Shown here: positions 14,951 to 32,503 of the stretch, one piece after another
Numbering within the stretch: position 1 is the stretch's first letter
Layout of the letters: the number at the start of each line of letters is the position of its first letter
Assembly (NCBI RefSeq): GCF_024347135.1
Contig: NZ_AP024907.1
Location: 3,773,001-3,837,000, forward strand
Length of the DNA stretch: 64,000 nt
Reading direction: 5' to 3'
Source of the DNA: Vibrio spartinae
GTDB lineage: Bacteria > Pseudomonadota > Gammaproteobacteria > Enterobacterales > Vibrionaceae
Position numbers and translations under genes: made by a program
Notes under the pieces: generated by a model
What the model was told of the DNA's origin: nothing
Database searches by the model: none
The model's input: the letters and a program-made list of their open reading frames with translations, nothing else

Positions 14951-15955
14951 TTATGGCAACAACCAGTGAGTCAACCGGAAACGAGCACATACCCAACTCA
15001 TCACCAAAGCACCGATATAGCTCATTATAATCCATAATGGAATCACCCAAAGCGGATGCCCCGATAAATTTAGCTCAAAATGATGCATGGGCCATAAAAC
15101 CAGCGGATGCAGGATGTAGATCCCCAAACTATAGCGGCTGGTAAAGCGTATCACTTTTTGCCACATCGGAGATAAGCGCTCCCCCCAGTGTCGGCACATG
15201 ACAAAAATCATCCCTGCAACCACAACGGTATTGATCGTTTTGTAGGAAAGCCAGCGCTTGACGGTATATTCCCCCGCTTCCACACTCAGATGAATCACCA
15301 TATACGCGGTTACCATCAAGCCAATACTTCCCAGCAGCCCCCAAAGCCAGACATGAACCGCTTCCCGGGACAGATAATATCCGAACAGCAGATAACCGGA
15401 GTAAAGCCATAATGAATAAGACCAAAACCCATTCCAATAAAACAAATACGCGACTGAACTGAAAATCCATAGCAACAGATAGCCTTGCGTAAACCATTCA
15501 TATCGTCTGACAGCCCAGTGAAAGAAAGGGATTAAAGCGTATAACGGGATAAAGTAATAAAAGAATCCAAGATGATAGTAGGTCGCTTCATGGGGCATCT
15601 CGATGAGTCGTTCCTTGACATTATCCCAATCAAAACCAGTCGCATCCCACCCGGATAAATAGGCATAGAATACGGACCAGATCAGAAACGGAATCACGAC
15701 TTTCATGACTCTGCGCTGAAGATAGTATTTCCCGTCGAAAGGACGGGCATCACTGATAAGAAGCGCACCAGAGACCATGATAAATACCGGAACGGCCCAC
15801 CGGCTGACACTATTTAAACCGGCAGCAACCACCCAGTGCTCAAAAGGAATCGCACCGTATTGATGACGAAATGGCCCCAAGACATGAATACCGACAACAA
15901 ACAGTGCAGCCAAAGAACGCAGTAAATCGAAATAGAAAACCCGACTGGGACTCAT
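14951..15955 (-). CDS. Acyltransferase family 3 membrane protein (O-acetyltransferase-like)
   Basis: 334 residues with about ten hydrophobic helices. The N-terminal FYFDLLRSLAALFVVGIHVLGPF contains the R...H pattern of acyltransferase-3 proteins. WAVPVFIMVSGALLIS and YSLGIYILHPLVLWPM are further family signatures. Such proteins move acyl groups, usually acetyl, onto surface sugars from the cytoplasm. It resembles WecH-like O-acetyltransferases. The substrate cannot be read from the sequence. No polysaccharide genes are nearby. Confidence 0.85.
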   Translation of the reverse strand: MSPSRVFYFDLLRSLAALFVVGIHVLGPFRHQYGAIPFEHWVVAAGLNSVSRWAVPVFIMVSGALLISDARPFDGKYYLQRRVMKVVIPFLIWSVFYAYLSGWDATGFDWDNVKERLIEMPHEATYYHLGFFYYFIPLYALIPFFHWAVRRYEWFTQGYLLLWIFSSVAYLFYWNGFWSYSLWLYSGYLLFGYYLSREAVHVWLWGLLGSIGLMVTAYMVIHLSVEAGEYTVKRWLSYKTINTVVVAGMIFVMCRHWGERLSPMWQKVIRFTSRYSLGIYILHPLVLWPMHHFELNLSGHPLWVIPLWIIMSYIGALVMSWVCARFRLTHWLLP

Positions 15956-16170
15956 CTTGAATCTCTCCTCTTATCTTGTCGATGACTCTAGCGAGATTGT
16001 CCTGTCAGATACAACAATCTATGGTTATCTTTTATTCAAGCTTATGTCAGAAATTCATTTTGATAGGAATTACCAATTAATAAAATCAACTTAACCGAAT
16101 TTATTTCATTGTTTGGCCGACGTATGATGAACGGGAATTAAACAGAATTCAGCAATAGATGGAGTGTCTT

Positions 16171-16641
16171 ATGAAAACGAATGTTATCGGCTTAGACAGT
16201 ACAACGAGCCAAAAACTTGCCACATCTTTAAATCAACTCCTTGCCAACTATCAGGTATTTTACATGAATGTCAGGGGTTACCACTGGAACATTAAAGGGC
16301 CAGAGTTTTTTGAACTTCATACCAAGTTTGAAGAGATCTATACTGAACTACTGACTAAAATCGATGAAGTCGCTGAGCGAATTCTGACGTTAGGAAGCAC
16401 ACCGCTGCATACCTTCAGTGATTATGTAGCATGCTCTGAAATTCAGGAGCATAAGCAAGCTTCACAGGCAAAAGCAACGGTTGAAGGTTTAGTACAGGGG
16501 TTCGGAACGCTGGTAAAACAGCAACGAGAAATTTTAGGGATTGCAGGTGATGCAAGCGATGAAGGAACCGCAGCATTGATGAGTGATTACATCAGAGAAC
16601 AAGAAAAACAAATCTGGATGTTTAACGCTTGGCTACAGTAA
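16171..16641 (+). CDS. dps: Dps-family DNA-protection / ferritin-like protein
   Basis: 156-residue mini-ferritin that oxidises iron with peroxide and stores it, protecting DNA. The ferroxidase residues are visible in NVRGYHWNIKG, FFELHTKFEEIY and IDEVAERI. ATG at 16171 has a GGAG ribosome site 6 nt upstream. The in-frame ATG at 16159 overlaps that site and is rejected as the start. It stands alone, convergent with the EAL-HDOD gene. The upstream 15956-16170 gap shows no clear OxyR site. Confidence 0.92.
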   Translation: MKTNVIGLDSTTSQKLATSLNQLLANYQVFYMNVRGYHWNIKGPEFFELHTKFEEIYTELLTKIDEVAERILTLGSTPLHTFSDYVACSEIQEHKQASQAKATVEGLVQGFGTLVKQQREILGIAGDASDEGTAALMSDYIREQEKQIWMFNAWLQ

Positions 16642-16705
16642 AGTGATTGGTTTTCGAACTCGCGTATCACACCCAAGCTAAATTCTGAGAACGTTCTATA
16701 ACTAT

Positions 16706-16751
16706 CGGTCTGAGGGATGGCGGTCTGAGAGATCGACGGTCTGAGGAGTCA
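16706..16751. repeat. Triplicate ~15-bp tandem repeat
   Basis: CGGTCTGAG-containing units start at 16706, 16721 and 16737 (units CGGTCTGAGGGATGG, CGGTCTGAGAGATCGA, CGGTCTGAGGAGTCA). They end exactly at the stop of the EAL-HDOD gene, so the last unit may be where a duplicated gene end began. No function is evident. Confidence 0.65.
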
Positions 16752-17975
16752 CACGATATATTGAGCATTGTTACTCCAACACAATGCTTCATGGAGTGAC
16801 AGACTGACTTCCTCAACCGATAGGCCGATTTTTGCGCTCTCCGTTTCAATGCCATGCCAGTCACCTCGTTCAAAATATTCCTGAATCGTCAGTAGGTCGC
16901 CAAAAGCACCTTTGCGCTTCGCCAGCGCTTCTTTCGCTAATTCAGGTAATGGTAACTGTTCCATTAAATCATCAATGGAAACGTCCAGAATGGCATCGAG
17001 CACAGAAAACAGACCGATCATAAATGCCTGCCCTTTCAACTCATGAAAAACGTCATGGGATGACATCAACTGACAAAAATGAGCGCGCTGGAGCGATAAA
17101 CGATAGAGTTCTTTCGGCTTATCCACGGCAATGTAAGATGCAACGGTCAGAGATACAAAAGACTTGAGTCGGTCTTGACCTAAATAGATAAGCGCTTGGC
17201 GGAACGAGGAGATGCTGACACAAAGGCGATCTGAAAGTGCATTCACAAAACGTAGTAGTTTATAAGACAAAGTCACATCTTGTGAGAGGATTTCTTCAAC
17301 TCGGTCAAAATCCACTTCGGGCCGACAGACTTCAATAAATAAATTCATTGCAGTCAGGTATTCTGGAACCACATAGCGCTTTTTCATCACCTGTGGCTTT
17401 CTAAAATAATAACCTTGAAAAAAGGAGAAGCCGGCAGCTTTGGTTTGCAGAAACTCTTCTTCCGTTTCTACCCGCTCCGCAAGAAACCGACACTGACATT
17501 TCTCGGCAATTTTTTCTTGGACAAACTGACAAGCTTCATCCACACCCAAAGCCATAATATCCAGTTTGACGATATGAACATAAGGGAGAAAGCGTTCCCA
17601 CGCTGGTGAATAGACGAAATCATCGAGTGCCAGTAAATAGCCGTGGCGATGTAAATCACGGATAACATAGTATAACTCATCGGTCGGTTCACAAGTTTCC
17701 AATACCTCGACGACAATCCGGTGCTTGGGCAGCGTAAAGGGAAGGCGACGAATCAGACTTTTATAGGGAAAATTGATAAAACAACGCGCTGACCGTCGCT
17801 CAGATATTCTGCCAACTGCCAGGAAGTTTTCAGCGATTAAACGATAGGTTGCCCGCTCTGAACTGATGTGAGATGGAAACGCATTCATTTCTCCGTCACG
17901 AAAAAGTAATTCGTAGCCTAGCGTGACGCCTTTTGCATTAAGAATTGGCTGACGAGCAACATATGTATATCGCAT
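16749..17975 (-). CDS. EAL-HDOD domain signalling protein (CdgJ/YuxH-like)
   Basis: 408 residues: N-terminal EAL-type domain (about 1-200), then HDOD domain (about 200-400). The EAL domain starts VARQPILNAKGVTLGYELLFRDG, with ELL in place of EAL, and ends with a FFQGYYFRKPQ motif. Some active-site glutamates and aspartates are replaced, so cyclic-di-GMP hydrolysis is uncertain. This EAL-HDOD architecture is common in Vibrio, where CdgJ affects motility and biofilm. Which cdg gene it matches is not resolved. Confidence 0.87.
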   Translation of the reverse strand: MRYTYVARQPILNAKGVTLGYELLFRDGEMNAFPSHISSERATYRLIAENFLAVGRISERRSARCFINFPYKSLIRRLPFTLPKHRIVVEVLETCEPTDELYYVIRDLHRHGYLLALDDFVYSPAWERFLPYVHIVKLDIMALGVDEACQFVQEKIAEKCQCRFLAERVETEEEFLQTKAAGFSFFQGYYFRKPQVMKKRYVVPEYLTAMNLFIEVCRPEVDFDRVEEILSQDVTLSYKLLRFVNALSDRLCVSISSFRQALIYLGQDRLKSFVSLTVASYIAVDKPKELYRLSLQRAHFCQLMSSHDVFHELKGQAFMIGLFSVLDAILDVSIDDLMEQLPLPELAKEALAKRKGAFGDLLTIQEYFERGDWHGIETESAKIGLSVEEVSLSLHEALCWSNNAQYIV

Positions 17976-17984
17976 TTTTCGAAC

Positions 17985-18602
17985 CTAGGCTTTTGCCACA
18001 GCCAATAAAGCACCACAACCCAAAAATGCAGATCCAAACACCTTATTTAAACGACGCATCACAAACTCCGAGCGCATATATCGTCTGAGCTTCGCAGCAA
18101 GCGAAGTATATGTCAGCATCACCAGTGTATCGATAAACATGGTTGTGACACCTAAAATAATGAGTTGAATCATCTGAGGGCCTTCCGGTTGAATAAATTG
18201 AGGGAAAAGTGCCACCAGAAAAACAATTGATTTCGGATTGGTTAAATTGATCAACATCGATTTACGTAACATAACCCAAGGTTGATGCGAAGTCTGTGAT
18301 TCAGTTGTAAAAGACGTGCTAGTATCGCGCCATTTTTGGATTCCCAACCAAACCAGGTAAGCAACGCCAACCCATTTAATGATGCTAAACGCAAGCACTG
18401 ACTGAGCCACCAAAGCACCGACACCAACGCCAACCAACAAGATATGAAAGCACAATCCCAACTGTAGCCCTGCAACCGCAAACAAAGACCTGCGGATACC
18501 GTAATTGAGACCATTGCTGATAGAATTCACAGTGCCAGAACCGGGAGCCAAACTGAAAATAATTGCCGTGGCTACATAAGCAAGCCAGACGTGTAGTTCC
18601 AT
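17985..18602 (-). CDS. LysE/RhtB-family amino-acid exporter
   Basis: 205 residues with five to six hydrophobic helices. The N-terminal AYVATAIIFSLAPGSGTVNSISNGL matches the LysE/RhtB signature, and LINLTNPKSIVFLVALFPQF is the second family motif. These inner-membrane proteins export amino acids such as homoserine, threonine or lysine. The substrate is unknown here. It lies 9 bp upstream of the EAL-HDOD gene on the same strand, so the two may be cotranscribed, with pldB divergent. Confidence 0.88.
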   Translation of the reverse strand: MELHVWLAYVATAIIFSLAPGSGTVNSISNGLNYGIRRSLFAVAGLQLGLCFHILLVGVGVGALVAQSVLAFSIIKWVGVAYLVWLGIQKWRDTSTSFTTESQTSHQPWVMLRKSMLINLTNPKSIVFLVALFPQFIQPEGPQMIQLIILGVTTMFIDTLVMLTYTSLAAKLRRYMRSEFVMRRLNKVFGSAFLGCGALLAVAKA

Positions 18603-18674
18603 GGGAATTCCTCTATAATAAAGACACTTAACGCAATACGAATAGTTCTCATACTATCAGCAATCAGTTGGATT

Positions 18675-19673
18675 ATGAATCAACATAAAATACTGACCTT
18701 CCCTTATACGCAAGAGTTTCTCTTTGAGCAAGCCGTCAGCACCGATATTTCAACTTTCTGGCAGGAGAGACAGGAGGGGACACTCCGTACCTTTGATCAA
18801 AAGCGACTCTACTGGTGCCGCTTCACTCATCCCGATCATGACCAAATGATATTGATTGCAAACGGACGCATAGAGTCCGTGTGGAAATATCAGGAGCTAC
18901 TCTACGATTTATTTCACCAAGGGTATGATGTTTATACGTATGATCACCGCGGACAAGGGCTGTCTGAGCGACTTAGCACTGACAAGCAAATCGGCCATGT
19001 CGGTAAGTTTCATGACTATGTTCGTGATATGGAGACCATCCTTGCCCAAACTTTAGCAACCAAAACTTACCGGGCCCGTTTTCTCCTCGCCCACTCGATG
19101 GGGGGCGCAGTCGTCACGCGCTATATTCAGACCCATCCAGAGCATGGCTTTGATGCCATGGCATTAACCGCACCGATGTTCGGAGTCCACATCCCCTACT
19201 TACTGCGTCCGATTGCGCTCCCTTTGACTCAGATTTTGTCTGCACTAACATCTGAGCCGAAATATGCACCGGGCTATCAGGGATACTTGTCTAAACCGTT
19301 TGAAAATAATCCGTTGACCCATAGCCAGACAAGATATCGCTGGTTCAGACAGCTGTATGATAATCATCCTGAATTAAAATTAGGCGGGCCCAGTGCGCAG
19401 TGGGTCTGGCAAAGTCTCATGGCAATCAAACAATGCCATCAACTGACGCGGCAAGTCACGCTGCCCACGCTGATCGTACAAGCGGGAGAAGACAGAATCG
19501 TCAGTAATCATGCCCAGGATTTGTTCTGTCGCAAAGTCGCGAAAACCAACCCACACAGCGCCTGCCTTAAGATTGAAGGTGCAAATCATGAGTTGTTATT
19601 TGAAAGCGATCAATATCGGATACCCACTCTGGATGCGATTCTCCGACACTTCTCATCCCATCGCTCAGCCTGA
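18675..19673 (+). CDS. pldB: Lysophospholipase L2-like alpha/beta hydrolase
   Basis: 332 residues of the monoacylglycerol-lipase type, which hydrolyses lysophospholipids at the membrane. The nucleophile elbow LLAHSMGGAV holds the catalytic serine, YDHRGQGLSER is the strand-4 motif, and EDRIVSNHAQ and GANHELLFE supply the acid and histidine. It precedes yigL by ~150 bp, the same pair as in enterics, supporting the pldB name. Confidence 0.9.
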   Translation: MNQHKILTFPYTQEFLFEQAVSTDISTFWQERQEGTLRTFDQKRLYWCRFTHPDHDQMILIANGRIESVWKYQELLYDLFHQGYDVYTYDHRGQGLSERLSTDKQIGHVGKFHDYVRDMETILAQTLATKTYRARFLLAHSMGGAVVTRYIQTHPEHGFDAMALTAPMFGVHIPYLLRPIALPLTQILSALTSEPKYAPGYQGYLSKPFENNPLTHSQTRYRWFRQLYDNHPELKLGGPSAQWVWQSLMAIKQCHQLTRQVTLPTLIVQAGEDRIVSNHAQDLFCRKVAKTNPHSACLKIEGANHELLFESDQYRIPTLDAILRHFSSHRSA

Positions 19674-19827
19674 TTTGCCCATTGATGACAAGTTTGGTAA
19701 CAGAATAGCCGGCAGCAATAAAAGAGGAAAACTGATAAGCTAGATTTTACCCTCTTTTTCCCCTTTATATTTTCGTAAAATAGTCAATAAAGCAGTTTTG
19801 CATTTCATTTTTTCACATGAGGATTTT

Positions 19828-20649
19828 ATGACGTTGACCAGCAAAGATATTCGTATTGTTGCTTCTGATCTTGATGGTACATTACTCGCTCCAGACCATA
19901 AGTTAAGCCCATTTACTAAGAGCACACTGAAAGACCTCCATCAGAAAGGGTATACATTTATCTTTGCAACCGGACGTCATCATATTGATGTGGCAGGTAT
20001 CCGTGAAATTGCAGGTATCCCTGCGTTCATGATTACCTCGAATGGTGCCCGGATCCATAGCCCGGATAATCAGCTGATGTTCAGCCGTAATGTCCCAAAA
20101 GAGTTGGTTCAAAGCCTGATTGATCTCTGCAAAGATGATCCGGATATCTTCATTCATATATACCACGATGATCAATGGCGACTCAGCGCGATCGATGAAA
20201 CGATTCGACAATATCACAATGAATCTGAATTCACGTTTCAGATGTTTGACCCGGAAAACCCACCGTTGGATAATGTCGCAAAAATTTTCTTCACGCACAG
20301 TCAGTCCAGCCACGATGCGCTGGTGCGCTATGAGAAAATCCTCAATCAACGTTTCGCAGGGAAAGTGACGATCGTATTCTCCAGCGCGACGTGCCTTGAA
20401 GTTATGGGGCCGGATATATCAAAAGGCCATGCATTACAAGTGGTTGCCAATTCACTGAATCATACATTAGACCACTGTATCGCATTTGGTGACGGGATGA
20501 ATGATATTGAAATGTTGTCGATGGCAGGCCGGGGGCTGATCATGGAAACCGCACATGAAAATGTCTTCTCCGCCTTGCCACAGACTGAGCATATCGGTAG
20601 CCATGCGGATGATGCTGTCGCCCACTATCTACATCAACACTTACTGTAG
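19828..20649 (+). CDS. yigL: HAD-family sugar/pyridoxal phosphatase YigL
   Basis: 273 residues of the Cof (IIB) group of HAD phosphatases. The nucleophile motif ASDLDGTLL is near residue 15, ISNG-type ITSNGARI follows, and the C-terminal FGDGMNDIEML binds Mg. E. coli YigL removes phosphate from pyridoxal phosphate and sugar phosphates during sugar-phosphate stress. The start at 19828 has a TGAGGA ribosome site. The frame is open 30 bp further up without one. Confidence 0.92.
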   Translation: MTLTSKDIRIVASDLDGTLLAPDHKLSPFTKSTLKDLHQKGYTFIFATGRHHIDVAGIREIAGIPAFMITSNGARIHSPDNQLMFSRNVPKELVQSLIDLCKDDPDIFIHIYHDDQWRLSAIDETIRQYHNESEFTFQMFDPENPPLDNVAKIFFTHSQSSHDALVRYEKILNQRFAGKVTIVFSSATCLEVMGPDISKGHALQVVANSLNHTLDHCIAFGDGMNDIEMLSMAGRGLIMETAHENVFSALPQTEHIGSHADDAVAHYLHQHLL

Positions 20650-20692
20650 TTCACACGTAACGCTTCCTCCGCGCATCCGTTATCTATCCGAT

Positions 20693-20725
20693 CCACCAGC
20701 AATCGATATTCGATAGTGCTGGTGG
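20693..20725. repeat. Inverted repeat between yigL and the NRPS gene
   Basis: CCACCAGCA (20693-20701) pairs with TGCTGGTGG (20717-20725), with a further ATCGA/TCGAT pairing inside. It lies 43 bp after yigL and 48 bp after the NRPS stop on the other strand. There is no T-run on either side, so it may protect 3' ends rather than terminate on its own. Confidence 0.55.
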
Positions 20726-20772
20726 TGAATGTCCGACAGTCGGGATTGAATATAACGACAGAGTGATATCGC

Positions 20773-23700
20773 TCAGTTGACGGATATCGGTATAGTCGTT
20801 TGCACAAAGTGACTTGCGTCAACCGATGCCGCTCGGTTTTCGCCCCCCATCGTCGGTAACTCGGTTGACACGGCGAAGTCAGGCGCCAAAGTATAGTGTT
20901 TCAGCGCCATCATCGGTTGCTCAATGATCTGCACCAGCAGTTGTTCAAACCGCCTTGCCAGACGCTGAGGTGAATAGCGGATTGACCGATACGCAATCAG
21001 CACATCCAGAGATTCTCCGGGGGTCACGAAAACGGTCAGTGGCAAATGAGTATAACCTCGGTTTTCCATCGCTGTCAGTTTCATGCCATGGTAATCGATG
21101 CTAAACCAATGATCATAATTCGGATAATTATCCACAGACAACATGGTATCAAACCAACACGCCTCTCCCGTCAGTTGCTCGATCTCATCCAACCCCAACA
21201 TATCGTGTTCACACAGATGAATCTGTTCCGACTGAACGTCTTTCAGTTGTTCAATCAATGGACGATTTGGCTGGAGTCGCATCCGGACGGGAACCGTATT
21301 GGTAAACAGACCGACATAAGATTCGATGCCTTCAATGTCACAAAGACGTCCCGAAACCGGTGAACCAAAAATAACATCTTCACATCCGGAGATATCACGC
21401 AAGATCATTCCCCACACCCCTTGCATCAACGAATTGACGGTTAAACCATTGTGTTGGCAGAGCGTCATCAGCTTCTGCGTCATCAGAGGTGATAACTGAA
21501 AAGATGCATCTCTGACCTGTGCTGACGGTGATTCACCTTGATAGAGAAGGGTTGGTTGCGCGCCAGCCAATGCCTGTGACCACGCTTGTCTGGCGACAGA
21601 TTTATCTCGTGAAGCTAATTGTCTAATCACGCTGGCATAACGATCAGGACTTTGCGGTGTGACCAACCCCGTAGCCTGAACATAAGCCTGAAGCAGATCG
21701 CGTAGCAAAATCGGCATTGACCACCCGTCAATAACCAAATGGTGTTCAGATAAAAACAGCGTATGCTGATTGTTATGGTGATGCACTAATACGGCATAAA
21801 GTAATGGCTGGCGGGTATCATCCATATCAAAGGGACGTAAGATTTCCCGGGACTCAATGGTGGCCAGCACGGCATCTTGCTCCTCACTCGGTAATTCATT
21901 GAGAGAACAAATTTCCAGCGGCCATAAGCTGCTTCCTTGTTCCACTGCCGCCACTGTAATTTGGGGCAGCACTTGAACCGCTTGATCTAAAATATGAACG
22001 TCAAAACGAGCCAGTAATTGTGGGTGGCGTAATACAACACAATCGAGCGCTTGCTGTAAGCGTTGCACATCCATGTCACCGACGAACTGCATCTTTGTCA
22101 GGGCGTTATAGTTGCTCTGTTGCCCGCGGGTACGGGCATGAGACAGCAGACCATTCTGAACCGGTAAAGTCGGAATAATGTCACGAATTGCACCATATTC
22201 AGCCGTAAATTGTGCCCGAACATCATCACTCATCCGGAGCGGGACTGCGGAATCATCCACATGCGGCACACGGGTGTGCTGATGGTGATCAATTTGCAAT
22301 GCTATTTTTTCCAGCGTCTTTTCCACAAAGATATCTTTGACCTTCAAAATGTATCCTTGCTGACGTATCCGGTTAACCAAAGCCATTGCCGAGATGCTAT
22401 CACCACCGAGTGAAAAAAAGTCATCTTCCGCAGAGATCACCGAGACCCCGAATAATGACTGCGCTTCCTGACACAATAGTCGTTCGATATCAGTCTGCGG
22501 TGCACGACCAATCCGTCGGGTCACCGACAGCGGCATCGCAGCCAACGCTTTGCGATCAATCTTACCGCTCGCATTAATCGGCATTTCATCAAGGATCTCA
22601 ATCACCGAAGGAACCATATAGTCAGGCAGAACTTGCGCAAGAGCCGCCGATAAACACTCCTCATTGCGTTGACAGGCATGCTCAGGCGTCAGCACACAAA
22701 ACCCGATCAAGCGGTGCGTTCCAGCAAAAGGCTCTGCGACAACGACAGCCTGAGCAACACCTAGCTGCACTGACAATGCATTTTCAACCTCGCCCAGCTC
22801 GATTCGATAACCCCGGATTTTCACCTGATCATCACAACGTCCGATAAAAGCAAGTTGCCCCTTTTCAGACCAACGCACTAAGTCTCCGGTCCGGTACATC
22901 ACCTCACCGGCAACAAATGGATCCGCGACAAAGCGTTCTGCGGTCATACCGGGTTGATTTAAATATCCCTGTGCCATGCCCGCCCCGGCAAGATAAAGCT
23001 CTCCTACATACCCTGTCGGCACCGGTGTCAGTGTTTCGTCTAATACATAAGTCCGCGTATTGGCGATGGGGCGGCCGATCACTGGGGTATCATCCGCTTT
23101 AAAACTGGCACTGACCGCATCAACCGTATATTCCGTTGGCCCATAGAAGTTTTCAACCATCAGCGCAGGGTACTCTCTCACCTTCTGCCACAATTTATGC
23201 GGTATTGCCTCACTTCCGACCAAGACGAGCGTCGGCACATGCGACATCGTCATCAGTCCGGCTTCCAACATCTGATAAAACAACGACGGAGACAGATCTA
23301 ACGCGTCAATTTGATCGTGTTCAACCAACCGGGTCAGTTCAAACGCATCCCGACGTTGTTCATTTGAATAGAGATACAGTGTATGTCCGTGAATCATCCA
23401 TAAAATTTGTTCCCAAGACGCATCAAAAGAAAAAGAGGTGGTATGTGCAGCCCGGACCACAGGGCAATCGCACGTTTGCTTCAACTGCGACAACGTCCGT
23501 TCAAAAATCGTCTGTCGATGAGACAGCGCGAGATTCAGTAGTGCGCCATGATGGTTTAAAACCCCTTTCGGCTTGCCGGTCGAACCGGATGTAAAAATAA
23601 TATAAGCCGTATCCTCTCTCTGCGGGGCGGGATAATCGGAGGGAAAGTCTTCCCCGGCGCACAGCAAGGTCGCGAGCCGCCATTGTAGTATGGTGGGCCG

Positions 23701-24378
23701 TGGTGTGGTGGATTCTCGTTTGGTAGATTCTCGCTTAATAGATAGCGACGAGGTAGACAGCGACGAGGTAGATAGCGACGAGGTAGATAGCGACGAGGCA
23801 GACAGCGGCTTGGTGACATGCTGCATCGCTTGTTGCAAACCACACGATGGATGCTCATCGAACAGCACACCCCGGGGACGCGCCTGTTCCAGAATCGCCT
23901 CAATTCGTTCTTGAGGGTAATCCGGATCAATCGGGAGATACACAGCACCGCACTTCATCACGGCCAAAAGCGCAATCACCGCCATCCCTGTTCTTGGCAG
24001 AGCGACGCCAATGACATCGCCATGACGGACGCCAGCTTGCAGGAAGTTGGCAGCAAGTGTATTAACCTGTTCATGCAGTTGCGCGAACGTCCATGATGTC
24101 TGCCCGTCGCACAATGCCAGTCGTGCTGGCAATGATTCAACTTGCTGCCCCAGCAGGTCAAGAATGGTTTGATACTCATTCGGAAGCGCTAATGTCGCAC
24201 CGGTAGACCAAGGCTGGATAGCGAGTTTCGCTTGCGGTGTACGTGCTGCGAGGCCACCGGCCGGGTTCAATGGGAAGGTACCCGGCTCCGTATCTTTGAC
24301 AAAATCAATATCTTCTGGCTGTCTTGCGGCCTGCGACCATTGTGCCGGCGATTGATCGATCATATTGCTCATAGACAT
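20773..24378 (-). CDS. Non-ribosomal peptide synthetase, A-PCP-C, no thioesterase
   Basis: 1201 residues. Residues ~70-610 are an adenylation domain with all core motifs: A2/A3 [10 protein letters not shown] and [14 protein letters not shown]5 [11 protein letters not shown]7 [10 protein letters not shown]8 [14 protein letters not shown]10 NASGKIDRK. Residues ~630-700 are a carrier domain ([12 protein letters not shown], Ser661 for phosphopantetheine). Residues ~730-1170 are a condensation domain with active HHLVIDGWS (879-887) and [11 protein letters not shown]. No thioesterase or reductase follows. A4 reads FDASWEQ, one residue shorter than the usual FDxSVWE, so the usual ten-residue code cannot be read safely and I name no substrate. 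A repeat-coded insert lies at ~193-225. It ends an operon with MbtH and a PPTase. The ribosome site is GAAGGA. Confidence 0.94.
23711..23815. repeat. Seven 15-bp tandem repeats inside the NRPS adenylation domain
   Basis: Units of exactly 15 bp keep the frame. Four near-identical units at 23741-23800 (GATAGCGACGAGGTA type, coding S-L-S-T-S on the minus strand) are flanked by a degenerate fifth at 23801-23815 and two units coding K-R-E-S-T at 23711-23740. The result is a low-complexity Ser/Thr loop between motifs A2 and A3. It should vary in copy number between strains. Confidence 0.88.
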
Positions 24379-24391
24379 AGCGATAATTCCT

Positions 24392-24604
24392 TCATGAATT
24401 CAGCCCGGAGAGATGACCATGCTGCCAGTTTTGTTCGACATAACTGAGACAGTCAGATTTATCTTTCGGACCGAAGATCGCTTGCCAACCTTGAGGAACC
24501 GGACTAAATTCCGGCCACAAACTGTACTGACCACGGTCATTGGTCAGTACCAGAAATCGATGATTCACATCATCAAATGGATTGGTATATTTTTTATCAT
24601 TCAT
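24392..24604 (-). CDS. MbtH-family NRPS accessory protein
   Basis: Small protein that binds adenylation domains and helps them fold or work. From ATG at 24604 it is 70 residues, the family norm. It carries the typical [22 protein letters not shown], and C-terminal SYVEQNW signatures. The frame is open to 24643, giving 83 residues, but that extension is atypical. It lies 13 bp before the NRPS gene on the same strand, so it almost certainly partners that A domain. Confidence 0.93.
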
Positions 24605-24655
24605 TATGTTTAAGCCACCCTGCCAACTAAGGGAAATATTCATACTTTGTTTACA

Positions 24656-25345
24656 TCAGGCATCTCGTTCAATCGGTATCAATGTTACGAGTGCGTCTTC
24701 CAGAAACAGATAATGTCCATGACAAAACTGTATTCCGGTCTGTTGCTGAAGTATTGGGGAGAGTTCAAATGTGAAATGTGAATACTGCGGCTCAAGCGAA
24801 ATCAATTGCGCATCATGGAAGTCAAGGTAACGTTTTACTAAAGGATAAAGCGCCTTAAACAGGCTCTCCTTGGCAGAAAACATCAAAGACATAAACTGTG
24901 CTTTATGCCAATCGGTGACATCCTGAAGCCGGATTTCCTCAGGCGTGACGATCATTCTTCCGATCGACTCGCAGAGTGTTTCATCCATGATGTTTTCGAC
25001 ATCAACCCCGATTGATAACCGCTCCGCTTTCGTCGCCACAGTAGAGATAGCCGTATCATCCGTATGTGAGATGGAGCCGATAAATCCGTCAGGCCACAGC
25101 GGTGAACGATGCTCTCCGATTCCGACCCAAGGTTCAGATGCGCCTCGGTGCAGCAAGGCATATTTTGCAGCAATTCTGCCGGCAACAAATTCTGCTTTTC
25201 TTTTGCTGACCGCCCCGAGCAGGGACTCAGGTAAGGTGATGCCTTCTTGTGCTGCCCCTGCCGTATACTGATCACGCACATAGCGATTCATAAAAAGCAT
25301 CTGTCCACCCAAGCATAATTGCTTTTGCCAGATCAGAAATGTCAT
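24656..25345 (-). CDS. 4'-phosphopantetheinyl transferase (EntD/Sfp-like)
   Basis: 229 residues. Transfers phosphopantetheine from CoA to the serine of carrier domains, activating the NRPS two genes downstream. The Mg and CoA motifs are visible: GSISHTDD, GVDVENIM and FSAKESLFKALYP. The N-terminal SKRKAEFVAGRIAAKYAL is typical of the EntD group. ATG at 25345 is preceded by GTG at 25348. It heads the PPTase-MbtH-NRPS operon and may also serve other clusters in the genome. Confidence 0.92.
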   Translation of the reverse strand: MTFLIWQKQLCLGGQMLFMNRYVRDQYTAGAAQEGITLPESLLGAVSKRKAEFVAGRIAAKYALLHRGASEPWVGIGEHRSPLWPDGFIGSISHTDDTAISTVATKAERLSIGVDVENIMDETLCESIGRMIVTPEEIRLQDVTDWHKAQFMSLMFSAKESLFKALYPLVKRYLDFHDAQLISLEPQYSHFTFELSPILQQQTGIQFCHGHYLFLEDALVTLIPIERDA

Positions 25346-25631
25346 CACTTATCTTCCCTAAACTCGTTCATCATATGTGCAAATCAATTGAAAATAGGTC
25401 TCAAACAATGGAGTAAGCCACCCCCATCCGGGCACTCAACCTTGTCTGCCAAAGCAAACATTCATGATTATTTTTCTGGATCTCTCGTTAATACTTGCTT
25501 CACCGTTGCACTGCAACAGCAGCTATTAGCATACAACCAATGCACGTATAAACTCCAATATAAATCCTCTTAACTCACAGCAAAGATCGCATTATTTCCT
25601 ATATTTCTGACTCATATAGTGTTAATTCACA

Positions 25632-25660
25632 TGATAACAGACCGTTATCAGACTGTTATC
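25632..25660. promoter_or_regulatory. Palindromic operator candidate upstream of the NRPS operon
   Basis: TGATAAC-N5-GTTATCA (25632-25650) is a perfect 7-bp inverted repeat, followed at 25655 by a third half-site GTTATC. Alternatively read, GATAACAG (25633-25640) pairs with CTGTTATC (25653-25660). The rest of the 25346-25773 gap is AT-rich with no supported gene and no Fur-box-like sequence. The shape suits a TetR- or GntR-type regulator, which is an inference. Confidence 0.5.
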
Positions 25661-25773
25661 CATAAGCAAATTGATGAATCAGAATCGTTAAACGTGAATT
25701 AAACGTGAATGTATTGATGGCCGATGCATGAACAATAGACAGGCGGTGAGAGCCGCGTATGGGTGAGCGGATT

Positions 25774-26226
25774 TCAACGCAGGGAAAGTATTGCCAACCA
25801 CTCCGCTTCAGTGACTGGCATAATGGAAAGCCGGTTGCCCTGTTTCACCAAAGGCATCTGCGTCAGTTCGGGCATTGTTTTCATAACAGCGAGGGGAATA
25901 ATCCGCGCCATTTGGCTGACAAAAGCAACATCAACCATTACCCAACGCGGGTTTTCCGGGGTTGATTTGGGATCGTAAACCTCGCTGGCGGGGTCAAATG
26001 CAAAGTGATCAGGATAGGCTTCACGGACCACCTCAGCAATACCAGCTACCCCAACCTGTTTACAGGATGAATGATAGATCAGGACCTGATCCCCACGACG
26101 GACTTGATCGCGCATCATATTACGCGCTTGATAGTTTCTGACGCCTTCCCAACAAGCGCGCTGCTGCACGCGTAAAGTATCAATTGAAAAAGTATCAGGC
26201 TCTGTTTTAAATAACCAATATGCCAT
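25774..26226 (-). CDS. EVE-domain protein (Thy28-like)
   Basis: 150 residues forming one EVE domain, a PUA-like fold that binds modified nucleobases. MAYWLFKTEPDTFSIDTL, WEGVRNYQARNMMRD and VLIYHSSCK are the family's conserved stretches. The biological role in bacteria is not settled. It is divergent from the lipoprotein gene with a 61-bp gap. Confidence 0.92.
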   Translation of the reverse strand: MAYWLFKTEPDTFSIDTLRVQQRACWEGVRNYQARNMMRDQVRRGDQVLIYHSSCKQVGVAGIAEVVREAYPDHFAFDPASEVYDPKSTPENPRWVMVDVAFVSQMARIIPLAVMKTMPELTQMPLVKQGNRLSIMPVTEAEWLAILSLR

Positions 26227-26287
26227 AATGTTATGCTGTCGCTATACGAGACGATGTCTAATCCGGTTAAGGTAAGGAAGATATACC

Positions 26288-27301
26288 ATGAAGCCCTTGA
26301 AAATTCTAATATTCAGCTCATTGATGTTACTCTTGCAAGCCTGTACATCATCAATGGTGTCTTCTCCTTCCGATCACGTTACGCTGGGGCAATCGGCAGA
26401 GATTCAGCTCCCGCGAATCATGTTCCGGGGTCAGCTCGTGATTGGCCCGCAAACCAGCTCATTCACCCCCTGTAACAGTAACCAACAATTTCTATTGACG
26501 CTGTCGGCACAACAATATCAGACACTGAGTCAACAGGTCGCCTCACCTTATCAATCGATCTACGGCGAAATCATTGGTTTCCTGACTGCGCCAAGTCAGA
26601 CAGGTTACAACGCTGACTTCAGAGCGCGATTGATTGCTCATCAGATTAACTATGTCTCACAGGATGCCGTCAAAGGCTGTAGTCAGCCAGTACAAAGCAC
26701 CGAGACGCAGGGACAAAAACCGCCCTGGCGTGTTCGTATGACATCACCAGAGACCTTGGCGGTTAAATTTGGCAACTCATCACCTCAGCAGTGGCCCGTT
26801 AAACGGGTGAACCACACCGAAGAACATCGTGTGTATACAACACCTCAGGGAACGCTGACACTATCACCATCAGTCTGCCAACTGAATCATCAGGCCTTAT
26901 ACGGCTGGATGGCAACCTTCAACACTCAGAAAGGCCGATACCGGGGCTGTGCCCGACTCGGCAATCAGGATCCGTCCACAACATGGATCGCGACCTATCA
27001 TGCAAGCTCAACCCGACAAGACAACTTTTCTGTGACATTGACGCTAAAGGCGGATCACACCGCTCGAACACTTTATCGTTATCAAAATGATCCGGTTCCC
27101 ATTGTCGAAACTGGCTTTTGGCAGGCACTGAATGCCGATCAGATTCAGGTGGTCATGACCCAACATCAACAGCAATACCTGCTCTCCCAACGGATTTTCA
27201 CACGCAAGGGCGATCAAATTCACGCCCCCAAAGAACAAGTCGGGCAGCAGATCTATCATATCAATGAGGGCGGGTTAACCCTGTACCGGAGTGAGCCATG
27301 A
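26288..27301 (+). CDS. Predicted outer-membrane lipoprotein, META/NlpE-like C-terminus
   Basis: 337 residues with a lipoprotein signal peptide ending LLLQAC, lipid-modified Cys19. Position +2 is Thr, so outer-membrane sorting is expected. The last ~100 residues (FSVTLTLKADHTARTLYRY, PIVETGFWQALN, then a C-terminal GGLTLYRSE) look like the beta-strand repeats of META/NlpE-type domains that read out as small-molecule or copper stress proteins. I do not recognise the N-terminal two-thirds. It has an AAGGAAG ribosome site and overlaps the next gene by 4 bp (ATGA). Confidence 0.75.
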   Translation: MKPLKILIFSSLMLLLQACTSSMVSSPSDHVTLGQSAEIQLPRIMFRGQLVIGPQTSSFTPCNSNQQFLLTLSAQQYQTLSQQVASPYQSIYGEIIGFLTAPSQTGYNADFRARLIAHQINYVSQDAVKGCSQPVQSTETQGQKPPWRVRMTSPETLAVKFGNSSPQQWPVKRVNHTEEHRVYTTPQGTLTLSPSVCQLNHQALYGWMATFNTQKGRYRGCARLGNQDPSTTWIATYHASSTRQDNFSVTLTLKADHTARTLYRYQNDPVPIVETGFWQALNADQIQVVMTQHQQQYLLSQRIFTRKGDQIHAPKEQVGQQIYHINEGGLTLYRSEP

Positions 27302-27957
27302 AAGTGAATCAACAGCCGGAACAATTACCGACCCCATGCCCCGGCTGTGGTTTGGTCTATCAGTGCATTTGTCAGGCCATTCCCCGTTGCGCGAGTGGCA
27401 TCAAGCTGTCCTTGCTGGTTCATGAACGGGAGATCAATCGGGCAACCAATACCGGACGCTGGCTCGTCCATGCACTGCCGCAGTGTCAGTCATACCTCTG
27501 GCAACGCAAACAAGCCGATGTGCAATTCCAACAACAGTTGGACGATCCCCGATTTTTTCCGGTGCTGCTATTCCCGGCTCCCGACGCACTTACAGCGGAT
27601 GAACTTTGCGCTCAAATATACACTGAGCACAAACCTCAGACTCAAGCGCACGATCATCAACCACAGCAACCCGTGCCACATTTCATTTTGCTCGACGGGA
27701 CTTGGCAAGAAGCGCGGAAGATGGAAAGAAAGAGTGCTTGGCTGGCAGCACTGCCCCGCATGCAGATCACGCCAAATACAACCTCATCTTACCGGTTGAG
27801 ACGCAACCAACAGCCTGACTCACTCTGCACATTGGAAGTCGTAGCCGCCCTGCTCGAACAACGCGGTGAGACCAAGGATGCTCAGGCATTAAACGATTTT
27901 TTACACCTGTTTATGGATGCCTTGCAAGCGGATAAAAACCGCGCTCCGGGACGATAG
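27298..27957 (+). CDS. DTW-domain tRNA-uridine aminocarboxypropyltransferase (TapT-like)
   Basis: 219 residues. The N-terminal zinc-binding cysteines CPGCGLVYQCIC and the DTW-type motif LLDGTWQEARKM define the family, whose studied members add a 3-amino-3-carboxypropyl group from SAM to tRNA uridine 47 or similar positions. TSSYRLRR and CTLEVVAALLE follow as expected. It overlaps the upstream lipoprotein gene, so the two are translationally coupled. Confidence 0.88.
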   Translation: MKVNQQPEQLPTPCPGCGLVYQCICQAIPRCASGIKLSLLVHEREINRATNTGRWLVHALPQCQSYLWQRKQADVQFQQQLDDPRFFPVLLFPAPDALTADELCAQIYTEHKPQTQAHDHQPQQPVPHFILLDGTWQEARKMERKSAWLAALPRMQITPNTTSSYRLRRNQQPDSLCTLEVVAALLEQRGETKDAQALNDFLHLFMDALQADKNRAPGR

Positions 27958-27994
27958 GTTCAGCGATAGCGGAACATGTCAGATCATCATAACG

Positions 27995-28711
27995 TTACAC
28001 AAGACCTAACAAGCTTGATAACTGCTTAATCTCGACATCCGGCAGTAACATCGCTGCCGGTTCGGTACGGATATTTTTATGTTGGTCATTCAACCAGCAG
28101 GCTGCAAACCCATTCATTTTGGCGCCATAAACATCAGTATTCAGATGATCACCGACATGCAGAATCTGGTCAGCAGGCAGATCGAGAGTGCGTTGCGCTT
28201 TGATAAACAGATCGGGATAAGGTTTGGCAAAGCCGTCAGGACCCGCTTGCAGTGTTTGCTGAAAATAGTGCCCCAGCCCAATTTTATTCGGGTCGACATT
28301 GCCATTGGTCACAGCAATTAACGGGACCTGTCGGCTCAATAAGGTCAGCACACGGTGTGTTTCTTCCGGAACCGCTATCTGATGACGCCAATAGAACATT
28401 TCATTGATTGCATCTTCAGCGGCTTGACGAGCGTCATCGGCTGAATACCCCAACAGTATCAACCCCTGCATAACCTGCTCATAACGCCATTGCGTCACAT
28501 CATGCGCCAACTCAGGAGATTGCTGGGCGACATTGGTTTTCAATTGCTTCCACCACGCCATCGGATGCAACGCACTGACCGGATGATTCAAATGCATCCA
28601 ATCCAACATTTTACGTTCCAGTTGGCGAATCACAGGGACGTTATCGTAGAGCGTATCGTCCAAATCAAAGGTCATTGCCTGAATCACAGGGAGAGAGCGA
28701 TAATAAAACAT
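27995..28711 (-). CDS. yigB: HAD-family FMN/ARPP phosphatase YigB
   Basis: 238 residues of the HAD family. DLDDTLYDN is the nucleophile motif, AVTNGN motif II, and HVGDHLNTDVYGAKMNGF the Mg-binding end. E. coli YigB dephosphorylates FMN and 5-amino-6-(5-phosphoribitylamino)uracil in riboflavin synthesis. It lies 3 bp downstream of xerC, the conserved xerC-yigB arrangement. Confidence 0.92.
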   Translation of the reverse strand: MFYYRSLPVIQAMTFDLDDTLYDNVPVIRQLERKMLDWMHLNHPVSALHPMAWWKQLKTNVAQQSPELAHDVTQWRYEQVMQGLILLGYSADDARQAAEDAINEMFYWRHQIAVPEETHRVLTLLSRQVPLIAVTNGNVDPNKIGLGHYFQQTLQAGPDGFAKPYPDLFIKAQRTLDLPADQILHVGDHLNTDVYGAKMNGFAACWLNDQHKNIRTEPAAMLLPDVEIKQLSSLLGLV

Positions 28712-28714
28712 GCG

Positions 28715-29644
28715 CTATGGTTTCCGTTTCTTCTTGGCGCGCGGATGAGCTTGATCATAAGCCTGCGCTAAATGCTGAAAATCGAGATGGGTATATATCT
28801 GAGTGGTTGAAATATTTTCATGCCCCAAGAGTTCCTGAACCGCACGCAAATTATGGCTTGATTCAAGAATATGAGTGGCAAAAGAGTGACGTAATTTGTG
28901 GGGACTGATATGGCTGGCGACCGACTGCTTCATTCCCCACTCTGACATCCGTTTCTGGACATTGCGATGCGAAATTCTTCCGCCACGACTCGAAACAAAC
29001 AGAGCAGGCTCATCGGCATGAGCAAGTTGCCCGCGAACAGCCATCCATTTTTTCACCCACGTCACAGCCTGACCGCTAAACGGTACTTTACGTTCTTTGT
29101 TACCTTTCCCAATCACGCGGATTTCTCCCAGACCGGGGTGAATATCTTTCAAATTGACGCTGACCATTTCCGCCAGACGCAGACCGGCACCATACATCAA
29201 TTCCATCATAGCCCGATCGCGAATCGCGAGCGGATCATCTTCATTCACTTCAAGTAACTGAGCGACTTCATCGACATCTAAATTTTTAGGCAAGGGGCGT
29301 TTCTTCTTCGGTGCAGAAACACCTTTGGCCGGATTTGCGGTTAAATCCCCCCTTAATACCAGAAAATCCAGAAAGCTACGCAAGGCAGACAAGCGCGTCG
29401 CTAAACTACTGGCCTTGATGCCGTCACGCATCCCTTTCGCTGCCAGTTGTCTGACCCATGCCGAATCCAATTGCTGCCAGCATGTCACCCCATTGCCAGC
29501 CAGATAAGCCGTCATCTGAGTCAGTTGTTGCTGATAATTCTGACGCGTATATAGACTCAACCCCTTCTCACTTCTCAGATATTCATAGAAGCGTTGAAGG
29601 GGTTGCTGTAATTCATCCGGTAATCTCAGACTTTCACTATTCAT
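28715..29644 (-). CDS. xerC: Tyrosine recombinase XerC (dimer resolution at dif)
   Basis: 309 residues. With XerD it resolves chromosome dimers at dif. The N-terminal SAM-like domain (FYEYLRSEKGLSLYTRQNYQ) is followed by the catalytic domain with the Arg of GAGLRLAEMV, the HKLRHSFATH His-Arg box, LLGHENISTTQIYTH, and the tyrosine nucleophile in that last motif. Operon order DUF484-xerC-yigB is as in enterics. Confidence 0.97.
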   Translation of the reverse strand: MNSESLRLPDELQQPLQRFYEYLRSEKGLSLYTRQNYQQQLTQMTAYLAGNGVTCWQQLDSAWVRQLAAKGMRDGIKASSLATRLSALRSFLDFLVLRGDLTANPAKGVSAPKKKRPLPKNLDVDEVAQLLEVNEDDPLAIRDRAMMELMYGAGLRLAEMVSVNLKDIHPGLGEIRVIGKGNKERKVPFSGQAVTWVKKWMAVRGQLAHADEPALFVSSRGGRISHRNVQKRMSEWGMKQSVASHISPHKLRHSFATHILESSHNLRAVQELLGHENISTTQIYTHLDFQHLAQAYDQAHPRAKKKRKP

Positions 29645-29681
29645 ACGACGAACTTGTTCATCTCTATGTTACTGACTCATA

Positions 29682-30368
29682 TTAGACGCGTTTCCATGGC
29701 AGTACAGATAATAAATGGGTCAACACCTCCGCCAGATAACGCAAGAACAATGTATCCATACTTGGCTGGAAATGACCGCCGTCTTCACTGGAAAAAGCCA
29801 GAATACCATGCGTGTCTGTGCTTCTGATCGGTAGTACCACGTAAGAACCGAACTCAGGCGCGCCTGAGTGTTCACCAAACAGACCATCGCGATCCGCTTT
29901 ACGCATTCTGCCTAAATAAGCACGGTTCCCGTTAAAATTGTTGGTGGAAAAACGTTGCCAATAGGCCAAGTCCAAGGCGTATGGTGTCGGCACACCCGAC
30001 AGACGGATATGCGCTTTCAGCGACATCTGCTCCGCTTTCCGTTCAATCGCCTCAATGACCTGACTCAACTCATCACACCGAAACATCTGTTCTTGCAGAT
30101 CCATAAATGCATGCAGCGTCCGGTCATTACTTGCTGCCAGAGACATCAACGCCGTAATTTCTTCTTCAAGCTCTTCGATCCGGTGTCTCTGCCGGTTCAA
30201 CTGAATGTGAACCAAAGACACTGCGCCAAGTTGCTGATGTGGTAGTGCAAGGCGATCAACCAACGCCGGACGATTCATAAAGAAATCCGGATGATTTTGT
30301 AAATAATCAGCCACCACTTCAGCGGTTAACACATCATTTTCATTAATTTCAGTTTCAGTGTTTGACAC
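29682..30368 (-). CDS. DUF484 family protein (GAF-like)
   Basis: 228 residues of the DUF484 family encoded between dapF and xerC in many gammaproteobacteria. ADYLQNHPDFFMNRPALVDRL is the N-terminal signature, then a coiled coil and a GAF-like domain with YVVLPIRSTDTHGILAFSSED. Function is unknown. I start it at GTG 30368, where an AAAGGG ribosome site has 5-nt spacing. The TTG at 30395 lacks one. Confidence 0.85.
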   Translation of the reverse strand: MSNTETEINENDVLTAEVVADYLQNHPDFFMNRPALVDRLALPHQQLGAVSLVHIQLNRQRHRIEELEEEITALMSLAASNDRTLHAFMDLQEQMFRCDELSQVIEAIERKAEQMSLKAHIRLSGVPTPYALDLAYWQRFSTNNFNGNRAYLGRMRKADRDGLFGEHSGAPEFGSYVVLPIRSTDTHGILAFSSEDGGHFQPSMDTLFLRYLAEVLTHLLSVLPWKRV

Positions 30369-30410
30369 AACAACCCTTTCTACAACGTTCTTCAATAGTT
30401 TCAGTGCTTC

Positions 30411-31241
30411 TCAGCACGCAATCTGACCTTCATAAATATGTGTGGCAGGTCCGGTCATATAGAGTGGTTGTCCCGGCCCCTTCCAGCTAATATTCAGGTC
30501 ACCACCCGGCAAATGTACGGTGACATTCTCGGCCAACTGCTCTTGAATAATCCCCACAGCAACAGCGGCACAAGCGCCACTGCCGCACGCCTGAGTTTCA
30601 CCAGCCCCACGCTCATAAACCCGTAACCGGATTTCATTGGGGCTCACGACCTGCATAAAACCAGCATTCACGCGTTCAGGAAAACGTTCATGGGACTCCA
30701 GTAGTGGCCCAAGGTGATCCACATCTGCGATATCGACATCCTCAACTGTTGTCACCACATGGGGATTCCCCATACTGACCACGCCACAAAACAGTGTCTG
30801 TTCTGCAATGCGTAAAATATAAGTCTTTTCTGACTGCTTTGCCTTAAACGGGATTTTCGCAGGTTCAAATACTGGTAATCCCATATTCACGGTAATCTGG
30901 TTGTCGTCTTCGACATTCAGAATCATCTTTCCTTTCTTGGTGCTGACATGAACGCTGTATTTGTTCGTCAAACCTTTCAGTCGAACAAAGCGCGCAAAAC
31001 AACGAGCACCATTTCCACACTGCTCAACTTCACTGCCATCTGCATTGAAGATCCGATAGTGAAAATCTGTTTCCGGATCATAAGGCGCTTCAACCAATAA
31101 CAATTGGTCAAAACCGACACCTGTGTGCCGGTTCGCTAAGCGACGAATCAGATCCGGTGAGAAGAAAATATTCTGGGTAATACAATCAACGACCATGAAG
31201 TCATTACCCAAACCGTGCATTTTAGAAAAATGAAAATGCAT
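30411..31241 (-). CDS. dapF: Diaminopimelate epimerase
   Basis: Interconverts LL- and meso-diaminopimelate for peptidoglycan and lysine. 276 residues from ATG at 31241, near the E. coli 274. The two catalytic cysteines are in CGNGARC and ACGSGACA, and [12 protein letters not shown] is the typical start. It lies 8 bp after lysA, so the operon is lptM-lysA-dapF-DUF484-xerC-yigB. The frame stays open to 31280 inside lysA. Confidence 0.97.
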
Positions 31242-31249
31242 AGGTTTCT

Positions 31250-32503
31250 TTACTCCGGTAAAACACTTTCCAAAGCCCACAAACTACTGAGAGGCTCGCG
31301 CTGGCGTACCAGATGAACCTGTTCTCCATCAACCATGACCTCAGCGGCGCGTGAACGCGAATTATAGTTTGATGACATGGCAAATCCATAAGCACCTGCC
31401 GAACGAACCGCCAGGAGATCACCTTCCTCAAGCACCAGCTCGCGCTCTTTACCGATAAAATCACCGGTCTCGCAAACAGGCCCCACTAAATCATAAACCA
31501 GCGCCGTTCCTTCCCGGGGAGTAACCGGTACAATTTTCTGCCATGCCTGATACAAAGCCGGACGCATGAGATCATTCATCGCTGCATCAATAATCGCAAA
31601 ATTCTTATACTCGGTATGCTTCAAGAATTCGACTTTGGTCAGTAGAATTCCGGCATTTGCGGCAATCGCCCGCCCCGGTTCAAACACCAGCTCCAAATCT
31701 TGATAACTTCCCAGACGCGAGAGTAATGCTTTGGCATATTCTGCCGGCTGTGGTGGCGTTTCTGCATCATAGACCACACCCAAACCACCACCGACATCCA
31801 GATGGCGAATATGGATGCCTTCCGCTTTAAGCGCATCGATAAGCGCCAGAAGACGGTCCGTTGCATCAATAAAGGGATCGATTTGAGTCAACTGTGAACC
31901 GATATGACAATCAATCCCATGAACGTCCAGATGCTCCAATTGATGCGCTAAGCGATAGACTTCGCGCGCGCGGTCAAAAGCAATCCCGAATTTATTGTCA
32001 CGTAGTCCTGTCGAGATATATGGATGTGTTTTGGCATCAACATCCGGGTTAATCCGTAGAGATACCGGGGCCTTCACACCAAGAGACTGAGCCACACGGT
32101 TCAAACGGTGTAACTCGGATTCGGATTCAACATTGAAGCACTTAATCTTCAATTCGAGTGCACGTTTCATTTCCGCTTCGGTTTTACCCACACCGGAAAA
32201 CACGATTTTCTCGGGATTTCCGCCAGCCGCTAAAACCCGCTCCAGCTCCCCTTGGGATACAATATCAAATCCAGAGCCAAGCCGCGCCAAGACACTCAAC
32301 ACCCCTAAATTGGAGTTTGCTTTCACGGCATAACAAACCAGATGTGGATGTGCGCCAACAGCCTGATCAAACGCATTCCAGTGGCGTTCTAGCGTTGCTT
32401 TTGAATAAACATAAAGTGGTGTGCCATAGTCCTTTGCCAGCTCTGCGAGACGAACCCCTTCAGCACATAGCTGTCCATCGTTCTGGTAATTAAAATAATC
32501 CAA
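31250..32503 (-). CDS. lysA: Diaminopimelate decarboxylase
   Basis: PLP enzyme that makes lysine from meso-diaminopimelate. 417 residues. CYAVKANSN holds the PLP lysine, HIGSQ and GGGLGV the phosphate-binding parts, and CETGD the active-site cysteine. The start is TTG at 32503, preceded by AGGAAAG, and gives the conserved MDYFNYQ opening. No ATG fits nearby. Confidence 0.96.

Follow-up and report, generated by a model that had tools for sequence, protein, structure and literature searches.

How does a nonribosomal peptide synthetase (NRPS) that begins with an adenylation (A) domain and ends with a condensation (C) domain come to stand without a release domain in a Vibrio genome, and what could it make? 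The question is raised by a three-gene set in a 64,000-nucleotide stretch of the Vibrio spartinae genome (contig NZ_AP024907.1); the whole stretch is referred to here as the window. In the best reading, to which we give a probability of about 0.7, the set appears to descend, by loss of parts, from a catecholate siderophore locus in which a synthetase of the form C1-A(Arg)-T-C2-A(Ser)-T-TE (T, carrier domain; TE, thioesterase) followed genes for a 4'-phosphopantetheinyl transferase (PPTase) and an MbtH protein. The remaining fragment of the siderophore synthetase would have been kept as an Arg-loading A-T-C enzyme, and the PPTase probably also serves other NRPSs.

The gene content described by the first-pass annotation, which was made from the letters alone, was borne out. 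All three genes lie on the minus strand with tight spacing: an EntD-like PPTase (230 amino acids, 24656..25348; Pfam 4PPT_N and ACPS), an MbtH-like protein (83 amino acids, 24392..24643; PF03621, 1e-24) and the NRPS (1201 amino acids, 20773..24378). Because the intergenic gaps are only 12 and 13 bp, the genes probably form an operon. The best NCBIfam family for the PPTase was EntD (2.2e-28, 99 bits, below the cut-off of 169), and an NCBIfam search with the MbtH-like protein gave no family. Pfam matched the NRPS to AMP-binding at residues 78-473 (3.8e-75), AMP-binding_C at 530-606, PP-binding at 634-693 and Condensation at 732-1168 (4.1e-64). The A domain thus spans residues ~71-615, the T domain 625-700 and the C domain 731-1168, between a vestigial N-terminus (1-70) and a short variable tail (1169-1201). 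Sequence motifs (27 residues, not shown) and HHLVIDG were found in the protein, and a search for a GxSxG motif found none. The A-T-C order without a release domain also held, as no thioesterase or reductase family was matched in the NRPS by Pfam at E <= 0.001.

The ancestry of this arrangement is indicated by V. palustris. Its NRPS (2372 amino acids, 100% identical to database protein P0121) has the form C-A-T-C-A-T-TE and lies in a 2,3-dihydroxybenzoate (DHB) cluster with entA, entC, entE, a major facilitator superfamily exporter and a TonB receptor (assigned by eye), a PPTase, an MbtH and an entB with a carrier domain. The order PPTase-MbtH-NRPS is common to both loci, and the A-T-C stretch (residues 231-1166) is 53% identical between the window and V. 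palustris. The first-pass annotation had named, as evidence against itself, a close homologue in a siderophore cluster, and the V. palustris gene is one. No epimerization (E) domain was matched in the V. palustris NRPS, which has two Condensation stretches; FreF is described, in an extract of PMC8480324, as having no E domain and the product DHB-L-Lys-L-Ser. In both V. palustris and VabF, the vanchrobactin synthetase, the second A domain reads DVWHFSLVD by eye, and an extract of PMC3795760 lists DVWHFSLVDK as a code for Ser.

The C domain was placed in an IQ-TREE tree of 47 C-type domain rows, comprising 21 of the 28 C-type domains of this genome together with relatives. The window type (nine rows) formed one clade, sister to the V. 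palustris C2 (99/98). Eight VabF C2s stood next outward (100/98), and starter C1s were placed elsewhere, so that the tree rules out a starter-C identity. The first-pass annotation had proposed a phylogeny against terminal and VibH-like domains; the tree provides the phylogeny, with VibH not among its rows, and places the domain as an intermodular C2 of the DHB-Arg-Ser type rather than the special terminal C domain expected there.

The window NRPS has a single Pfam C domain, no starter C1 beyond a short N-terminal remnant, and no second module A(Ser)-T-TE by Pfam. Only ~120 bases separate its stop from the next gene, too few to accommodate a remnant of the Ser module. In the V. mangrovi orthologue (1364 amino acids) Condensation is matched a second time; by eye, the start of that protein lines up with the C-lobe of the V. 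palustris C1, the HHxxxDG half being gone. The window NRPS is a truncated piece of a catechol siderophore synthetase that selection apparently still maintains, and as such a variant of a known enzyme kind.

Another truncation in the same family was seen in catechol clusters of two genomes, G103 (L139, 10114-14367) and G123 (L140, 10098-14360), which hold T-C-A-T-TE synthetases of 1417 and 1420 amino acids. The EntB of these clusters matches no carrier domain in Pfam, and the leading T of the synthetases may be an aryl carrier. The gene order in G103 is PPTase-MbtH-NRPS (MbtH by eye).

Substrate specificity was read at ten motif-chosen alignment columns, position 239 being ambiguous, in six orthologues and 121 other rows. 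DAWEDVVFVD was found in five of the six orthologues (the window protein and P0001-P0004) and in both V. palustris-type rows. V. mangrovi has DAWEDVIFVD, one V/I change from the window type and the same as P0135, which NCBI names VabF; the VabF-like protein of this genome has DAWEDVICVD. Module 1 activates Arg in VabF and Lys in CbsF (extract of PMC3795760). From these residues the substrate of the window A domain is predicted to be L-Arg. Rows labelled Chrysobactin by their source read DSWEDVIYID (P0195) and DSWEDIIYID (P0225).

The distribution of the protein was assessed at three levels. A search of ~5.8 billion proteins, with candidates limited to 0.55-1.75 times the query length, gave 3792 matches at E <= 1e-100. 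Among the matches listed, the best 120 of 3792, the closest full-length relatives came from V. gazogenes (87%), Vibrio sp. MEBiC08052 (84%), V. ruber (82%), V. rhizosphaerae (80%) and V. mangrovi (70%), and the next was a Microbulbifer protein (41%, C-A-T-C-A by eye). In the genus, with the three best candidates scored per genome, 14 of 227 genomes matched the window NRPS at E <= 1e-150: V. spartinae itself, five with orthologues (G060, G061, G131, G134 and G154), V. palustris (G110) and a further seven, whose sole match was of the VabF type. Frames in these seven were 2822-2850 amino acids long, but 2010 in G104. The A-T-C operon was thus found in 6/227 genomes, all six also with a VabF-like match. 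In a family sample 11/197 genomes matched, and that sample yielded no A-T-C protein from beyond the genus; the sole match there (G307) covered residues 253-728 and lay in a 2844-amino-acid frame. None of the genomes in these samples was recognised as V. mangrovi. Listings of open-licence literature on V. gazogenes nonribosomal peptides and V. ruber siderophores showed nothing on the locus. In G104 (L108, 8435-16965), vabF reads as two open reading frames (ORFs) of 2009 and 836 amino acids.

Selection on the operon was examined through the ratio of nonsynonymous to synonymous changes (dN/dS), given as Nei-Gojobori means over the 15 pairs of the six A-T-C genomes. The domains of the window NRPS gave 0.095 (A), 0.059 (T) and 0.117 (C), and the regions outside them 0.37 (N-terminus), 0.22 (T-C linker) and 0.46 (tail); the N-terminus and tail are relaxed. 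MbtH gave 0.153 and the PPTase 0.112. In the VabF-like protein of the same genomes the values were 0.155 (C1), 0.114 (A1), 0.118 (T1), 0.137 (E) and 0.130 (C2), and five neighbouring genes in three genomes ranged from 0.03 to 0.08. A-T-C is therefore constrained like an intact synthetase, and less than the five neighbours. The gene is open in 6/6 genomes, and open frames together with low dN/dS make a pseudogene unlikely. Near-invariant columns, defined as at least 95% conserved in 118-121 full-length relatives, were kept in all of the window protein and P0001-P0005 at 79/80 positions for A, 15/16 for T and 66/75 for C. A 15-bp tandem repeat (4.6 copies, 23739..23807, minus strand) adds (SSLST)n units, in frame, to a part of the A domain that varies among orthologues; the insertion is not in the V. 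gazogenes orthologue P0001.

The PPTase may have a role beyond its own operon. Besides the window PPTase, this genome encodes AcpS, a PPTase of 243-247 amino acids and one of 289 amino acids in a cluster that looks prodigiosin-type by eye; the 243-247-amino-acid type is missing from G060, G061, G131 and G134. A vab-like cluster (G000 C1:1622000-1646000; L043, L044) contains a receptor, an esterase, MbtH, transport and DHB genes (some by eye), and its VabF-like protein (C1:1.626-1.635 Mb) has three Condensation stretches, two A, two T and a TE. No PPTase match was found in this cluster (C1:1.622-1.646 Mb). The other VabF-type genomes of the genus have a PPTase match 6-18 kb from the VabF A-domain match in 7/7 cases, and the A-T-C genomes have one within ~18 kb in 0/6. 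In five of these the nearest PPTase is more than 280 kb from vabF, and in G134 vabF lies on a 29-kb contig without a PPTase. As the vab-like cluster has no PPTase of its own, the window PPTase probably primes it, and probably other NRPSs of the genome as well, in trans. A V. anguillarum vabD mutant made neither vanchrobactin nor piscibactin (extract of PMC6083037), so one shared PPTase is known in vibrios. The idea that the window PPTase is a moved VabD was not supported: in a PPTase tree, PPTases from 3/7 vab clusters formed their own clade (100/100) and the window type another (100/100), whose place among the remaining PPTases was unsettled, with several long branches. The first-pass picture of a self-sufficient unit does not fit a PPTase that probably serves other NRPSs or a C domain that groups with intermodular C2s.

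Upstream of the PPTase gene, the best Fur-like 19-mer within 500 bp matched a Fur consensus at 12/19 positions, a score that 57% of 300 mononucleotide shuffles also attained. No Fur-like site above chance was therefore seen upstream of the PPTase in this genome, in agreement with the first-pass annotation, which had noted no Fur box. Best scores in the five orthologous upstream regions were 12, 12, 12, 12 and 14 (the last in G134), and four shorter intergenic regions of the vab cluster in this genome gave 16, 15, 15 and 14 as raw matches with no shuffle baseline. Within the upstream region lies a conserved ~300-bp 5' leader or promoter region of the putative operon (25349..25650, minus strand). 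Its mean column identity over six genomes was 92%, and it matched at one place each in 6/227 genus genomes, three candidates being scored per genome. A structured leader RNA was not upheld, with changes on both sides in 2/85 predicted pairs and a covariation term of -0.55. No Rfam family exceeded its cut-off in the leader, and two small nucleolar RNA matches far below gathering were taken as chance. A possible short ORF was seen by eye in the leader (~25470-25545), with three Cys codons and a GTG start in 5/6 genomes.

Under the preferred reading, the PPTase would prime the window T domain, and the A domain, with MbtH, would activate L-Arg and load it on T. The C2 domain, which ancestrally would have passed DHB-Arg to Ser-S-T2, would now hand Arg on to an acceptor that the locus itself does not encode. 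This could be a soluble amine or, in trans, an aminoacyl carrier protein belonging to another NRPS. The product is presumably not a catechol siderophore, because C1, the Ser module and TE are gone; the first-pass suggestion of a non-siderophore product gains support to this extent. We propose only tentatively that the trimmed three-domain enzyme, outside Fur control, makes a small Arg conjugate, such as an arginyl-amide or an Arg-X dipeptide, that serves the Vibrio gazogenes group in a new physiological role.

Several results weigh against the preferred reading. The C domain departs at 9/75 near-invariant columns, each orthologue alone at 8/75, and the median of the 121 relatives, near kin set aside, at 1.3% of C columns; the domain may therefore have drifted or changed specificity. 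Nine changed columns exceed the median relative but not V. palustris, as 9 and 10 of 77 C columns are changed in V. palustris-type rows, and 9-10 in some other relatives too. The dN/dS values are plain means without a statistical test. The JGI record P0232, labelled arginyl-carrier ligase, reads DSWEDIVFVD, so that position 236 is no clean separator of Arg from Lys. The operon has no transporter or tailoring gene, and V. spartinae and G154 hold an extra PPTase. When an acceptor or partner was sought, VabF itself (60%) proved to be the nearest A(Ser)-T-TE across the six genomes, with other matches at 47% or less except two short ones at 52-54%. That the missing half is encoded elsewhere was thus rejected, as nothing else in these genomes came close.

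The two kinds of acceptor define narrower forms of the preferred reading. Passage of Arg to another NRPS in trans, most plausibly VabF, the 2685-amino-acid type, the 1083-1092-amino-acid type or a large multimodular cluster, has a reasonable chance, though short of even. Frames of the first three types occur in 6/6 A-T-C genomes and those of the large cluster, of 4284-4352 amino acids, in five, with shorter ones in G154. A precedent is AmbB, which condenses in trans with AmbE T1 and whose A domain loads AmbE T2 (extract of PMC8968710). VabF, however, is complete with its own Arg module, and seven genus genomes have a VabF type and no A-T-C match. It is possible, and only slightly less likely, that the enzyme is instead a stand-alone amide synthase, as the first-pass annotation proposed, whose terminal C uses a polyamine, agmatine or a similar soluble amine as the partner for Arg, with no other NRPS. 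That no partner NRPS is co-encoded, and that no separate close A(Ser)-T-TE was found across the six genomes, would suit this, but the C domain groups in the tree lacking VibH with intermodular C2s that take carrier-bound Ser. Glidonin synthetase cuts both ways: its C13 takes free putrescine and A12T12C13A*T13 made Ala-putrescine in vitro, but bare A12T12C13 was insoluble and A12T12 without C13 gave a low yield (extract of PMC10587159).

Other explanations dispense with condensation. The A-T part might only supply Arg-S-T to another enzyme, or load VabF T1 in trans, with C inactive. Constraint is strongest on the A core and on T, and loading in trans is known from AmbB (extract of PMC8968710), but the C domain retains HHLVIDG and its dN/dS (0.117) compares with 0.130 for VabF C2, which makes this unlikely. 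A decaying relic, kept only for a needed PPTase in the operon, would account for the loss of C1, A2, T2 and TE, the relaxed N-terminus and tail and the changed C columns, and the vab-like cluster likely needs that PPTase. We consider it improbable, as the A-T-C gene comes third and last in the set, has an open frame in all six genomes and shows dN/dS like intact VabF.

In the Vibrio gazogenes group the operon is flanked on either side by an ordinary chromosomal gene. An EVE-domain gene was present in 6/8 other Vibrio genomes searched, 48-116 bp from a HAD gene (by eye) in 5/6, G001 being different; that HAD gene resembles the one flanking the window operon. The operon thus, for the most part, splits two genes that commonly lie together. 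A search of 23.5 kb around the G154 operon found no EVE gene. Window ORFs were listed for 15000-32000, and by eye no DHB genes or receptor were among them; the orphan context described in the first-pass annotation was supported. Its statement that no transporter is in view was considered over this range, in which a LysE/RhtB-like ORF (by eye) lies at 17985-18602. The genome (5.19 Mb, two contigs) has 28 C-domain matches, and the first-pass statement that no further NRPS is present holds for the window, with one of these, and fails for the genome, with 27 elsewhere. One further NRPS of 2685 amino acids, C-A-T-C-A-T-TE, lies at G000 C1:3850800-3859000 (L045) and is found ~52-58 kb from the operon in all six A-T-C genomes; its specificity residues, read by eye, we take to be of Leu type. 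The earlier interpretation as a whole is partly supported.

The series from the full synthetase of V. palustris through the half C1 of V. mangrovi to the bare A-T-C of the V. gazogenes group suggests how an assembly line sheds modules yet stays selected. The locus also brings the choice of acceptor by an orphan terminal C domain down to a small, testable enzyme, and points to a PPTase that probably activates siderophore and other NRPSs of the group.

Among known systems, AmbB of Pseudomonas aeruginosa has A, T and C on the donor side of condensation, as in the window NRPS (extract of PMC8968710). AmbB works with AmbE from the same cluster, whereas no partner is seen at the window locus, and the likeness is one of described domain content. 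The V. palustris NRPS (P0121/L046, 2360-2372 amino acids), a predicted DHB-L-Arg-L-Ser synthetase, has a homologous A-T-C core and the same specificity residues, but has the full C-A-T-C-A-T-TE set and lies in a DHB cluster alongside a receptor and an exporter; the window NRPS has A-T-C only and no such neighbours. VabF (vanchrobactin, DHB-D-Arg-L-Ser) shares the Arg-type A, at 53-56% to the VabF-like protein of this genome, and a related C2, at 44%, but has the C1, E, Ser module and TE that the window NRPS is without. More broadly, the window NRPS shares an Arg/Lys-type A and C2 with the DHB-basic amino acid-Ser synthetases of the VabF/CbsF/FreF/TnbF type, but its locus is without starter C1, A(Ser)-T-TE, DHB genes and receptor, and without a Fur-like site above chance in this genome. 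VibH and VibF C2 are C domains that use soluble amines. Although the window C domain is phylogenetically an intermodular C2, product release by C alone, as with VibH, VibF C2 and glidonin C13, might be possible for it likewise.

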